A stretch of DNA of 64,000 nucleotides from Desulfosporosinus acididurans (lineage in GTDB: Bacteria > Bacillota > Desulfitobacteriia > Desulfitobacteriales > Desulfitobacteriaceae), in assembly GCF_001029285.1 (NCBI RefSeq), contig NZ_LDZY01000008.1, positions 1 through 64,000 on the forward strand, in the 5' to 3' direction. Position numbers and translations under genes: made by a program. Below, piece after piece: positions 718-63,039 of the stretch (position 1 is its first letter; the number at the start of each line of letters is the position of its first letter). Below the pieces are notes generated by a model. The model was not told the DNA's origin and ran no database searches. It was given only the letters and a program-made list of their open reading frames with translations.

Positions 718-840
718 CCACACTGCAGGAGAAGGCGTCACTGGATGCAGTGTGGCGAAAAGCTCGTACTTCGCCACGAAGTGAATCTCTAGGGTTGGTG
801 GCTCGGCGAAACCCTCCACCGGAGGCTTTCGTGCTTTTTG
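718..840 (+). other. Structured RNA candidate, copy A (leader of the DUF457 gene)
   Basis: This stretch holds several stems. CCACACTGCA (718-727) pairs with TGCAGTGTGG (746-755). GTGGCGAA (752-759) pairs with TTCGCCAC (770-777) and shares four bases with the first stem, so the two exclude each other. A third option pairs GCCAC (773-777) with GTGGC (798-802), enclosing AAGT and a 4-bp AATC/GGTT stem. Last comes an 11-bp hairpin (807-831, one mismatch, loop ACC) followed by TGCTTTTTG, which looks like an intrinsic terminator. The 773-831 part has a homologue with matching stems at 1615-1674. The family is not recognised. It could be a cis-regulatory leader or the RNA scaffold of an IS200/IS605-type element. 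Confidence 0.5.
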
Positions 841-884
841 TATACACTGAGAGAAAACCAAAAAACTCTATAATATGAAAGGCG

Positions 885-1571
885 ATGATTAGACAGATTA
901 TGATGGGCAAAACGCATATCGCCATTGGTTTGGCAGCTGCAACATTCACAGCGCCTATGCTAAGATGGCCAGGGCTTGATAACGGTTTACTAACTTTTGC
1001 CGTATCTGCTGGAGCAGTGGTGTTAGGAAGTCTCGCGCCGGACCTCGATCAACCAGGAAGTACTGCGACCAAAGAAATTGCAGGCCCCTTTGGAAAGAGT
1101 CGAATTGCGGCAATGCTGGGAGGTGCGGCCGCAATCTATATCAGCGATAAAATCAATCTTAAGTTCAACGGCTATGATTTTCGTCTAGCCATCATGGTAA
1201 TCGGGATTATTCTATTGATCATGGCTTTTATAAAACATCGTGGCATAACCCATTCACTGATTGGAATAATTGCCGCTTGGTATGCATTTAACACATTGCA
1301 AGGGCTAACCATTTACAAGCACTATATAGGCATACCCATAGTTGAGCCTTTTATGGTTGGATACATAGTCCATATTGCAGCAGATTTCTTTTCCGGCGGA
1401 ATAGCACCTTTGTATCCCTTCGTTAAAAAAAGAATCAAGTTCCCAGTCTCCATTAAAACCGGTGGAATTTTAGACAAGTTGCTGATCCGATATCTGGCGC
1501 TTTTCCTGGCGATTGTCAGGATGTTGAATATGTCCAATAAGCTTATGGCTTTCGTTGTTAGAAAGGGGTGA
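885..1571 (+). CDS. DUF457/YdjM-type metal-dependent hydrolase-like membrane protein
   Basis: This 228-residue membrane protein belongs to the DUF457 (YdjM) group. Visible family motifs are GKTH near the start, LGSLAPDLDQPGS around residues 48-60, KHRGITHS around 117-124 and HIAADFF around 163-169. The His/Asp residues suggest a metal site at the membrane. Several hydrophobic segments are present. E. coli YdjM is an SOS-linked inner-membrane protein, but the reaction is unknown. The start is uncertain. ATG 885 has GAAAGG only two bases upstream, while ATG 900 and 903 give the family-like start MGKTH but are too far from it. The gene lies alone, between the two copies of the RNA-like motif. 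Confidence 0.8.
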   Translation: MIRQIMMGKTHIAIGLAAATFTAPMLRWPGLDNGLLTFAVSAGAVVLGSLAPDLDQPGSTATKEIAGPFGKSRIAAMLGGAAAIYISDKINLKFNGYDFRLAIMVIGIILLIMAFIKHRGITHSLIGIIAAWYAFNTLQGLTIYKHYIGIPIVEPFMVGYIVHIAADFFSGGIAPLYPFVKKRIKFPVSIKTGGILDKLLIRYLALFLAIVRMLNMSNKLMAFVVRKG

Positions 1572-1596
1572 TCTGTGGGTCCTTCGTTAACTTCAG

Positions 1597-1674
1597 GTGG
1601 TAGAGTCATCCTTCGCCGCTAAGTATTCCTATTGGGAAAGGCGGCTCGGCAATAATGTCCACTGGACATTATTG
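1597..1674 (+). other. Structured RNA candidate, copy B
   Basis: This is the second copy of the fold seen at 752-831. GTGG (1597-1600) is followed by CTTCGCC. GCCGC (1615-1619) pairs with GCGGC (1641-1645) around AAGT and a TTCC/GGAA stem-loop. The segment ends with TCGGC and a perfect 11-bp hairpin (1650-1674, loop ACT). Stem sequences differ from copy A but pairing, loop sizes and the AAGT and TCGGC elements are kept. Unlike copy A there is no T-run after the last hairpin. Instead an IS605-end-like repeat begins eight bases later. Confidence 0.5.
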
Positions 1675-2264: not shown

Positions 2265-4575
2265 ATGGTTATAATTGAAAACCCCAAAGGCAGTCGAATT
2301 GGTCGAATTATTAAGTATTGCTTATTTGCTCTGTTAACTTTGACCATCATAGTATCAAGTGTTCTTGGAGTCCTATATGTGGTATATAAACCTGCTATAG
2401 ATTTAGCCAAGGAACAGGCAATTATTAAAGTAAGAAATATAGACCAGCTAACCTTTAAGAGAGCTGGCAGCACCTTAATATTGGATAAGGACAATAAGCC
2501 AATTGCCAAGTTAGGCTTAAGCGGTTATAACTATGTAGACCTAACCGATGTATCTAATTATGTACCTCAAGGGTATATCGCGGTTGAAGATAAGAATTTC
2601 TTTACGGAAGGAGCTTTAGATTATAAAGAAACGATAAAGGCCGGTATATTGTACTTGCTGAACAGAGGTAAAGCAACAGTAGGTGGTTCGACGATCACTC
2701 AGCAAGTTGCCAAAAATGTGTTGCTTACACAAGAAAGAACGGTTTCGCGCAAGTTAACTGAAATATTCATAGCGTTCGACTTGACAAAACGATATACGAA
2801 AGAGCAAATCATGGAGTTCTATATTAACAATTGTTACTATGGTGAAGGGTGCTATGGAATAGAAAGTGCTGCTCGGTACTTTTTCTCAAAACCCGCTTCT
2901 AAGCTAACTTTGGCAGAAGCAGCAACTCTTTGTGGAATGTCTAATAATCCTTCGCTGTTTAACCCTGTTACTAATCCGAAAAAGGCGACACAACGAAGAA
3001 ATATAGTCCTCAATGTCATGCTGGAACAAGGAAAAATATCACAAGCTGAGTATGATGAAGCAAAGGATAGTAAGTTAACTCTCACAATTCACAAACCCGT
3101 AGCAACACCTGAAAATTATATGACAAGCTACGCTATTGATTGTACAGTGAGGGCGTTGATGGAACAAGATGGCTTCCAATTTAATTATTCATTTAAGACA
3201 GACGATGAAAGAAATAATTATGAGTCTGAATATAAAGAAATTTACTCCCGGTATGATAAACGAGTCCGCAGCGGTGGGTACACAATTCACACCTCGCTTG
3301 ATCCTGCCAAACAATCCCTATTGCAATCATCTCTGGATAATGGCCTGCAGGATTTTACGGATATCAATCCTGCAAATAATAAATTCAGTATGCAAGGGGC
3401 AGCGGTTTCAATTGATAATAAAACGGGTTATGTAGCAGCAATTGTAGGAGGGAGAGGCGATCAGGATGTGTATAATCGGGCCTTTCTGAGTTATCGGCAA
3501 CCGGGTTCATCAATTAAACCGTTACTGGATTATGCTCCTGCCTTCGAATTAGGTTATCATCCTCTGTCTCGGATAACTGATCAATATATTCCTAATGGTC
3601 CGTGCAACGAAGAAAACCGATACTATGGGCCTGTAAGTATTCGATTGGCAACGGAAATGTCTCTTAATACCGTTGCTTACCAGGTATTGGCAAAAATAAA
3701 ACCTCAAACGGGGTTGGCCTATTTAGAGGCGATGAGGTATGCGGGGCTTCTATACTTTAGCGAACGGCGGAAGGTATGTTCAGCCTAGTTGTGTCACAAA
3801 GATTGACAATCTGGGGCAAACGATTTATAAAAACAGCCGAGAAGTGAAAACGATTTATTCACCGGAATCTGCCTATATGATGACAGATATTCTTAAAGGA
3901 GTTATCAGTTCGAACTATGGCACTGGGCACAATTTAAAAATTGATGGCCAAATAGTTGCCGGGAAAACTGGTACTACGGAAAACAGTAAAGATGGATGGT
4001 TCTGCGGTTATTCATCATACTATACAACCGTTGTATGGTGCGGGTATGATATCCCCAAGGAAGTTGACAATTTGTTCGGCTCTACCTATCCTGGACACAT
4101 TTGGTTGAACTATATGACCAAGATACATGAAGGTCTCCCCAAAGCAGATTTTCTCCAACCACAGGGAATTGTTTTTAAAACTATTGATTGGCGGGGTAAT
4201 CCTACCGACTTTGACACAGGAACTCAAGATATGTTTTCTAAAACTTGTTTAGAGAAGGGTTTAGGGGGGCAGATCGGCGTGAACGCGTCGCAGTCTGCAA
4301 AAGACGGTTCAAATATAACCAATCGAGTAATAACTCCCAAAGAGAATCAAATTCCCCAACCAATGGACCAGGAGACAAAAGCTGAACAAGATGCCGACGC
4401 TGCTCTAGCAGTCCTGGAATCATTAACACCTCAAAGCTCAGCAGAGAATAGGGATGCTGTTTTTTTAGATGCTCAAAATAAGATAGGAAAAATAAAGGAT
4501 AAGGATAGACGTTCTTCCTATCTAGATAGAATAAGTGGTGTGCAGAGAGTATTGGGTATTGAGGGTTCATATTAA
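2265..4575 (+). pseudogene. Class A penicillin-binding protein (PBP1a type), broken by a frameshifting deletion
   Basis: This is a bifunctional peptidoglycan synthase. Residues 15-40 form the membrane anchor. The GT51 transglycosylase follows (VEDKNFF with the catalytic Glu, GGSTITQQ, RKLTEIF). The transpeptidase has its Ser motif GSSIKP and SLN motif in the first frame. KTGTT and the whole C-terminal part lie in another frame, which opens near 3739. The first frame stops at 3786-3788, after YLEAMRYAGLLYFS; the second reads RGFYTLANGGRY. Family members have roughly 25-30 residues between these blocks (the TPLEMA region), and these are absent here, so the cause is a deletion, not a single-base slip. 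The first frame alone would leave a transglycosylase without a complete transpeptidase. Confidence 0.85.
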
Positions 4576-5343: not shown

Positions 5344-5368
5344 GAAACCCCTCCTTTGTTATCCAAAC

Positions 5369-5408
5369 TTAAGACCCCCACTTCTTCAAGTGGGGGTGGT
5401 TCTCATTT
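5369..5408 (+). repeat. Dispersed hairpin repeat family 1, copy 1 (also a likely bidirectional terminator)
   Basis: A 9-bp stem (CCCCCACTT 5375-5383 with AAGTGGGGG 5388-5396, loop CTTC) is preceded by AAGA and followed by TGGTTCTCATTT. The same unit recurs at 11115-11162 (inverted), 14704-14750 and 62924-62968. It sits between two convergent genes and may serve as their terminator. The form resembles an IS200/IS605 end hairpin. Confidence 0.65.
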
Positions 5409-11060: not shown

Positions 11061-11189
11061 TTGAAAAAAGTCAAGAAACAGGTTAATAGATATATTATTT
11101 TGAACTATCTCCACCAAAGCACGGTATGGGAACCACCCCCATTTGAAGAAGTTGGAGTCTTACGATTGGATAAAAATCGAGTCCTTTGA
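11061..11189 (+). CDS. Possible small basic protein, 3' end overlapped by hairpin repeat
   Basis: A 42-residue frame starts at TTG 11061 with GGGGAGG seven bases upstream and reads MKKVKKQVNRYIILNYLHQS before entering hairpin repeat family 1 (11115-11162). After that the sequence (TVWEPPPFEEVGVL) is repeat-derived. It may be a small gene whose original 3' end was replaced by the repeat. It ends 13 bases before the kinase start, so it could also act as a leader frame for the kinase. Confidence 0.35.
   Translation: MKKVKKQVNRYIILNYLHQSTVWEPPPFEEVGVLRLDKNRVL
11115..11162 (-). repeat. Dispersed hairpin repeat family 1, copy 2 (inverted)
   Basis: Read on the minus strand it runs AAGACTCCAACTTCTTC, then AAATGGGGGTGGTTCCC, then ATACCGTGCTTT. 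It matches the copies at 14704 and 62924 over ~45 bases, including the flank after the hairpin, so the repeat is more than a stem-loop. Confidence 0.65.
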
Positions 11190-14640: not shown

Positions 14641-14696
14641 AAGGAAAGCTGTAGAGAGGGTGTGAATCATCCATCAATACAGCTTTCCTTTTTATT
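14641..14696 (+). terminator. Intrinsic terminator after ferredoxin
   Basis: AAGGAAAGCTGTA (14641-14653) pairs with TACAGCTTTCCTT (14678-14690) and is followed by TTTATTT. Confidence 0.88.
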
Positions 14697-14703
14697 TAGT
14701 TTT

Positions 14704-14750
14704 CAAGACTCCGACTTCTATAAGTGGGAGTGGTTCCTATACCTTGTTTC
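14704..14750 (+). repeat. Dispersed hairpin repeat family 1, copy 3
   Basis: AAGACTCCGACTTCTATA, then AGTGGGAGTGGTTCC, then TATACCTTGTTTC. It has the same order and flanks as the copies at 11115 and 62924. It lies right after the ferredoxin terminator. Confidence 0.65.
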
Positions 14751-14846
14751 AGGGGGGTATAGATTTTTGTCCAGAAACAAGTAAAAATTTGGTGAGATCC
14801 ATAGCGATATTTGTTGTGAAATGTCATATTGAATAGTTTTATAGTA

Positions 14847-37566: not shown

Positions 37567-37598
37567 ACCTAATTTTTATGGCCATTGATCCAGTTTTT

Positions 37599-37637
37599 AA
37601 GACCCGATGTTCAGCTTCAGCTGAACGAGTTCACTTG
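37599..37637 (+). repeat. Dispersed repeat family 2, copy at 37.6 kb
   Basis: AAGACCCGATGTTCAGCT, TC, AGCTGAACGAGTTCACTT. Here the hairpin (GTTCAGCT/AGCTGAAC) is perfect, unlike the degenerate copy at 1679. It lies between the Spo0E-like and exonuclease genes. Confidence 0.55.
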
Positions 37638-62923: not shown

Positions 62924-62968
62924 GCGCTCCCACTTCTACGAGCGGGAGTGGTTCCCATACCTTGCTTT
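62924..62968 (+). repeat. Dispersed hairpin repeat family 1, copy 4
   Basis: CGCTCCCACTTCTACG, then AGCGGGAGTGGTTCCC, then ATACCTTGCTTT. The stem is CGCTCCCACT... with AGCGGGAGTG, altered from the other copies, but the flank GGTTCCCATACC is the same as in copy 2. Confidence 0.62.
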
Positions 62969-63010
62969 GGCGGGGGTAGAATATATTCTTCAGCGCGATC
63001 GCATTTGTTA

Positions 63011-63039
63011 TGGGTTCAGCTATAGCTGAACAGGTTCAG
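63011..63039 (+). repeat. Dispersed repeat family 2, partial copy
   Basis: GTTCAGCT (63014-63021), AT, AGCTGAAC (63024-63031), then AGGTTCAG. The hairpin core matches the copy at 37.6 kb. It lies 45 bases after family 1 copy 4, the only place where both types are side by side, possibly the two ends of one collapsed element. Confidence 0.4.

Follow-up and report, generated by a model that had tools for sequence, protein, structure and literature searches.

Layout of the locus

The window analysed here, a stretch of 64 000 nt from Desulfosporosinus acididurans, begins with the end of an rRNA operon, in which the 3' end of the 23S rRNA gene is followed by an intact 5S rRNA gene, a first repeat (copy A), a YdjM/DUF457 gene and a second repeat (copy B). 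Both copies had been singled out in an original prediction as homologous structured RNAs on either side of the DUF457 gene, and the coordinates and layout given there agree with our folds. The following features were assigned:

531–647, + strand: intact 5S rRNA gene at the operon end (Rfam RF00001, 96.6 bits; sister operons)
718–755, + strand: hairpin H1 (CCACACTGCA/TGCAGTGTGG) of the 5S-pseudogene insertion (fold; kept in 12 sister operon copies)
756–840, + strand: enclosing stem H2 of copy A, 756–763 CGAAAAGC pairing with 833–840 GCTTTTTG, core in the apical loop
767–832, + strand: core module of copy A, P1 773–777/798–802, J TCGG 803–806, P3 807–831 (model R1, 80.2 bits)
885–1571: YdjM/DUF457 gene (PF04307)
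about 1575–1717, + strand: IS200/IS605-type miniature element of copy B, left end lost (positions 40–183 of the 184-bp consensus)
1591–1683, + strand: enclosing stem P0 of copy B, CTTCAG 1591–1596/CTGAAG 1678–1683, holding the core
1609–1677, + strand: core module of copy B, ATCC start at 1608, P1 1615–1619/1641–1645, P2 1626–1629/1635–1638, P3 1650–1674 (model R1, 97.7 bits, E 5e-20)
1691–1717, + strand: right-end hairpin and terminal GAGTTCAC (1710–1717) of the element of copy B
5359–5406, + strand: related element, left-end hairpin remnant
11105–11174, − strand: related element, left-end part
14691–14762, + strand: related element, left-end part
37586–37634, + strand: 49-bp derivative of the outer element of copy B, LE and RE only, without core
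62927–63038, + strand: degenerate element of a second type, with an AGCGC variant of the core

Two further observations concern the window itself. A penicillin-binding/transglycosylase ORF running from 2265 ends at 3788, and an ORF in an overlapping frame (3739–4575) carries on from this point (3781–3788), so that the gene looks frameshifted. A long imperfect inverted repeat with 30-nt arms and a 3-nt loop surrounds a TAAAACAGCAGCC motif at 2001–2063 and is probably a terminator. Searching genome contigs with the DUF457 (YdjM) protein yielded no relatives; those obtained by a pattern search belong chiefly to Desulfosporosinus, and also to Acididesulfobacillus, Peptococcaceae CEB3 and Bacillota MAGs.

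A common core module with covarying stems

Copies A and B contain a core of about 65–70 bp with the plan ATCC – (TWC) – hairpin P1 – (T)TCGG – hairpin P3 (25 nt) – CGT. Conserved motifs are the TCGG junction, AAGTATTC in the loop of P1 and the ACY loop of P3. The 4-bp stem P2 of the original prediction is present, although weaker than claimed: it does not keep one register in the two copies. No family had been recognised for the two copies, and none of the 4227 Rfam models matched at A or B, either at the gathering threshold or with E up to 10. The proposed search with a covariance model built from copies A and B (R1) returned further homologues in which the pairing is kept: about 100 full-length matches in the genome of origin, and matches in 38 of 61 relatives. 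As had been suggested, A and B are homologues whose stems differ by compensatory changes, and their fold covaries across the relatives. By itself, copy B (1615–1674) folds far below its dinucleotide shuffles in energy (z −4.6), while the RNA fold of copy A alone is not clearly better than shuffles (z −1.3). It is the relatives that give the fold its significance.

For the analysis of pairing, cores were extracted by sequence anchors blind to pairing. The number of P3 pairs was distributed with two strong peaks over the 220 candidates, from which we kept the 165 with at least 8 of 11 Watson–Crick pairs in P3. As many as 10–11 of the 11 P3 pairs are Watson–Crick in 159 of these 165 cores; 8 G-T stand against 13 A-C, which means no wobble preference. 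In a non-redundant set of 31 cores, 317 of the 341 P3 cells are Watson–Crick, where shuffling gave 260 on average and 273 at most; two-sided changes occur at 6 of the 11 pairs. The percentage of paired cells is raised by the 8-of-11 filter, the compensatory changes are not. G-T (2) and A-C (3) are equally rare among these 341 cells. For P1 the larger set gave 12 G-T and 6 A-C in 710 cells, which is still low.

One explanation for such a pattern is a functional structured RNA, riboswitch-like or belonging to an sRNA family, which transposition would have dispersed and selection maintained at the RNA level. The conserved TCGG, AAGTATTC and ACY motifs, the covariation over many genera and the stable predicted RNA fold of copy B are in line with it. 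However, structural RNAs are usually rich in G-U pairs, and P3 is virtually devoid of them; in addition, many copies are truncated or nested, and the Rfam search was negative. Covariation is not by itself proof that an RNA is functional, as mobile DNA palindromes can show it too, and the scarcity of G-T pairs may help to separate the two.

Copy B lies within an IS200/IS605-type element

The region of copy B has at least 40 sisters with 93–99% identity in the genome of origin. The alignment of 40 copies gave a consensus of about 184 bp with sharp ends that runs CC...GAGTTCAC: the left end is TTTATCC followed by a 10-bp hairpin, and the right end is a hairpin followed by GAGTTCAC(T). Imperfect hairpins lie subterminally at both ends and the right terminus is fixed. 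Empty sites were found in genome G008 for three loci, L031 (TTCTTAT^TGTCC), L037 (TTTGT^TAATT) and L043 (TTTTTAT^TTCC), showing insertion directly 3' of a fixed target (TTAT/TTGAT or TTTGT) without duplication. Insertion after a short target without duplication is the behaviour of IS200/IS605 elements, and we class the outer element as a new MITE of the IS200/IS605 type. The link of copy B to an IS605-like end, drawn in the original prediction, held, given the insertion of the outer element after TTAT/TTGAT with no duplication and its terminal GAGTTCAC. It resembles known IS200/IS605-derived MITEs and PATEs in the hairpin near each end, in the insertion 3' of TTAT/TTGAT without target duplication and in the conserved TTCAC of the right end of the 184-bp element. 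Unlike them, it carries an unrelated structured core in an internal hairpin, and our search found no autonomous partner that shares its ends.

Mobility was assessed by presence and absence, which for the outer MITE means orthologous empty sites and for the core means filled versus core-free hairpins in different copies. The empty P0 hairpin of the MITE reads CTTCGGTGGGGG-TAGAGT-CCCCCACCGAAG, and the core is found in its right arm, reversed in its left arm, or in both arms. Inversion was rejected as the origin of the two orientations: the P0 loop (TAGAGT/TAGACT) is unflipped in the reversed class, and from its constant orientation it follows that two symmetric half-sites are used. The core was also observed within at least three more outer repeat families (L133, L138, L253, L260, L265 and L273; L139, L148, L249 and L252; L151 and L155).

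These ends had raised the possibility that the core is the omegaRNA scaffold of an IS605/IS607 TnpB system, left behind as solo copies. The IS200/IS605-type insertion and the subterminal hairpins of the outer element fit this explanation, but the core occurs in either orientation, and some copies lie far from any IS605 end, namely in 5S inserts and other repeats. Moreover, no core was present at any of the 10 PF07282 (TnpB) or 5 PF01797 (TnpA) loci of the genome of origin, and the IS605-type tnpA/tnpB elements there have ends different from those of the outer element. We regard a TnpB scaffold, which the original prediction had offered, as hardly credible.

Copy A lies in remnants of 5S rRNA genes

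About 12 near-identical sisters of the copy A region exist in the genome of origin, mostly at contig ends together with rRNA operon sequence. In sister operons the intact 5S gene is trailed by one or more 5S copies, which inserts have split into pieces 1–33, 37–57 and 61–117. Each insert consists of hairpin H1 and hairpin H2. A bare H2 reads CGAAAGGC-TCATCC-GCCTTTCG, whereas a filled H2 holds the core in the same loop, and we counted 28 core-filled and 34 core-free H2 contexts. In the window the 5S insert was retained and the flanking 5S pieces are gone; comparison with the sister operons places copy A in or beside the fragments of a 5S gene that follow an intact one. Copy A is thus a core within a hairpin insert, and the insert lies in what is left of a duplicated 5S rRNA gene. 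The T-run at its end, pointed out in the original prediction, is no terminator but the 3' arm of the enclosing stem CGAAAAGC/GCTTTTTG, for which the sister copies have GCTTTTCG.

Interrupted 5S pseudogenes behind an intact 5S gene are already known in D. orientis and D. youngiae (Stepanov & Fox 2021, PMC7812874), and the setting of copy A is alike. The accessible part of that paper treats these cases as pseudogene insertions and makes no tie to a dispersed, self-nesting repeat family.

Model R1 detected no inserts made of the core in 23S or 16S rRNA genes in 10 rRNA-operon stretches. Three inserts of about 130–220 nt each, folding into long hairpins, were seen in a 23S rRNA gene of Acididesulfobacillus (G032, L350:2395-3799); as core modules they were rejected, being unrelated long hairpins. 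In two other rRNA operons (L345 and L346, from G016 and G003) the first matched position of the 23S is 566 in the model or 358–397 in the query, so that the 5' part of the 23S is missing or set apart by a large stretch.

Cores are nested within cores

In the relatives the tip of P3 frequently contains a further core. We collected 23 balanced nested arrays, mostly from draft genomes or MAGs, of depth 2 (17 arrays), 3 (four), 4 (one) and 7 (one, L288). Their arms match in last-in-first-out order in 54 of 57 cases; where arm types are mixed (13 arrays), 34 of 37 matched compared to 19.8 expected with the right arms shuffled. The left nested junction is ATCC in 48 of 49 cases. Most right junctions have CGT or CGTC with ACT/ACC after it, misread hairpins having been set aside in this count. 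Cores are hosted in palindrome arms or tips, comprising the P0 of the MITE, the H2 of 5S inserts, other repeats and their own P3 tip.

A serious rival for the growth of the arrays is recombination between palindromes, in which replication template switching or gene conversion would produce the nested arrays and spread the core without a transposase. The palindromes are near-perfect and lack wobble asymmetry, and successive levels are near copies in L274 and in the array of depth 7. Core junctions in general are slightly ragged at both sides (left ATCC/TCC/CC, right CGT or CGTC), which one would not expect from a precise transposase and which counts against a mobile core. On the other hand, adjacent levels often differ in module type (the 13 mixed arrays), and cores sit in such unrelated hosts as the MITE, the 5S inserts and other repeats. 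We consider this process rather unlikely as the explanation of both nesting and spread.

Distribution and gene context

A wider sample gave R1 matches in 28 of the 30 genomes taken from the genus and in 12 of 16 from elsewhere in the family. Of 28 genomes outside the family but within the order two matched, and of 9 outside the order but within the class none did. The core is therefore family-restricted, being present in most family genomes sampled and almost nowhere beyond. No core pattern was found in viral contigs. In a genome of another genus of the same family (G031), seventeen core copies share the top score, which suggests recent spread.

Within 864 kb surveyed, 36 of 41 elements are intergenic. 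Their orientation to neighbouring genes is balanced (16 co-directional, 14 opposite) and the median distance is about 100–120 bp on both sides. The matches lie at unrelated intergenic sites, neither in front of one gene class with a common downstream gene nor beside tnpB, as the original prediction would have had it. Both copies in the window are dispersed multi-copy repeats, so that a pair flanking a single DUF457 gene dissolves; the repeat on the DUF457 side is merely one of many, and the balanced orientation is at odds with a cis-regulatory RNA in front of that gene. The lack of orientation bias, together with the lack of wobble asymmetry, speaks against selection as RNA, and a functional RNA without strand bias or common downstream gene is in our view improbable.

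Search for a mobilising enzyme

We examined 15 TnpA/TnpB loci of the genome of origin and 28 Y1 loci of relatives and found no enzyme moving the outer MITE or the self-nesting core. In particular, neither the 5 Y1 loci of the genome of origin nor the 28 of relatives include an autonomous TnpA (Y1) element with the ends of the outer element, and no transposase with core or outer ends was present in the loci examined, which counts against a mobile core, as does genome G003 with core repeats and zero PF01797 genes. Only one own TnpA/TnpB locus (C6:174.7k) matches the ends of the outer element, with an RE-like stretch by a degenerate IS605 fragment. At this place (L070:1230-1900, G000:C6, about 174.7 kb) the start of a tnpA is fused to the end of a tnpB, beside the RE and the left-end hairpin of the repeat family. 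At one of the relatives' 28 Y1 loci (L404) an element with a core lies close by, but it was rejected as autonomous partner, since the ends of this element do not enclose the Y1 gene. Long LE–RE pairs were likewise rejected as chance neighbours.

REP/BIME/REPIN and BOX-type modular repeats are high-copy, intergenic and palindromic, and possibly moved in trans. If the core consisted of REP/BIME units moved by a RAYT-like Y1 transposase, a candidate would exist in a 266-aa RAYT-like Y1 protein of the genome of origin (L069, G000:C20:24634-24966), with similar long ones in many relatives. However, this gene is bordered by another repeat, GGACCGTCCC..CTGACAC, with no core at the locus; own Y1 flanks have this GGACCGTCCC-type repeat, and G003 manages without any PF01797 gene. 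Such a system is very improbable here. REPINs have been described as high-copy intergenic palindromic repeats that are possibly moved in trans (PMC3116915). The core differs from REP, BIME, REPIN and BOX repeats in that no shared sequence was recognised, in its three-way junction and in its insertion into hairpin arms as well as tips; no RAYT link was found for it in comparison with REP/BIME/REPIN.

A proposed mobile palindromic module

Almost no G-T in the pairing and no orientation bias favour a mobile palindromic module at the DNA level over a riboswitch or a TnpB omegaRNA, and copies A and B are probably two insertions of one such small module acting as DNA. The core would insert where an arm or a loop of a hairpin palindrome contains CC, swapping 2–3 target bases for ATCC...CGT(C) without target duplication. 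Its targets would be the P0 of a separate IS200/IS605-type MITE for copy B and, for copy A, the H2 of an element already seated in broken 5S rRNA genes; insertion at the tip of its own P3 would give nested arrays. From this we infer that the core itself may move at the DNA level, probably as a folded single strand, on which an enzyme provided in trans, of the HUH (Y1) type or another, could act. A host function for the core is neither needed nor seen.

More tentatively, the core could be a mobile element of a new kind: a DNA module of about 70 bp with a three-way junction, which targets hairpins including the tip of another copy of itself, grows inward into ordered, tree-like palindromes and is moved by an enzyme or a DNA process. 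We give this reading somewhat less than an even chance. In its description it resembles the mitochondrial double-hairpin elements and the GC clusters of yeast, which are small, mobile and also found in rRNA genes, with an unknown mechanism, the double-hairpin elements of Allomyces inserting without target duplication (PMC2800124, PMC4478555). The likeness lies in small mobile double hairpins and in rRNA-gene sites; these elements are organellar, and the accessible parts of the two accounts do not describe ordered last-in-first-out self-nesting. Searching the literature for palindromes inserted into one another, or for repeats of Desulfosporosinus, returned no description, with subscription journals thinly covered, so that absence is unproven; a self-nesting hairpin module appears not to have been described previously.

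The core is probably a small mobile hairpin of DNA, specific to the family, that inserts into other hairpins and its own tip (up to seven deep), into remnants of transposons and into interrupted 5S rRNA genes; among bacterial repeats such behaviour is unusual. If the proposed mode of insertion is true, it would explain how the peculiar inserts in the 5S rRNA remnants of Desulfosporosinus arose, would provide a bacterial counterpart to the long-puzzling mitochondrial double-hairpin elements, and would offer a natural, testable system for palindromes that are targeted by, and grow through, the insertion of palindromes.
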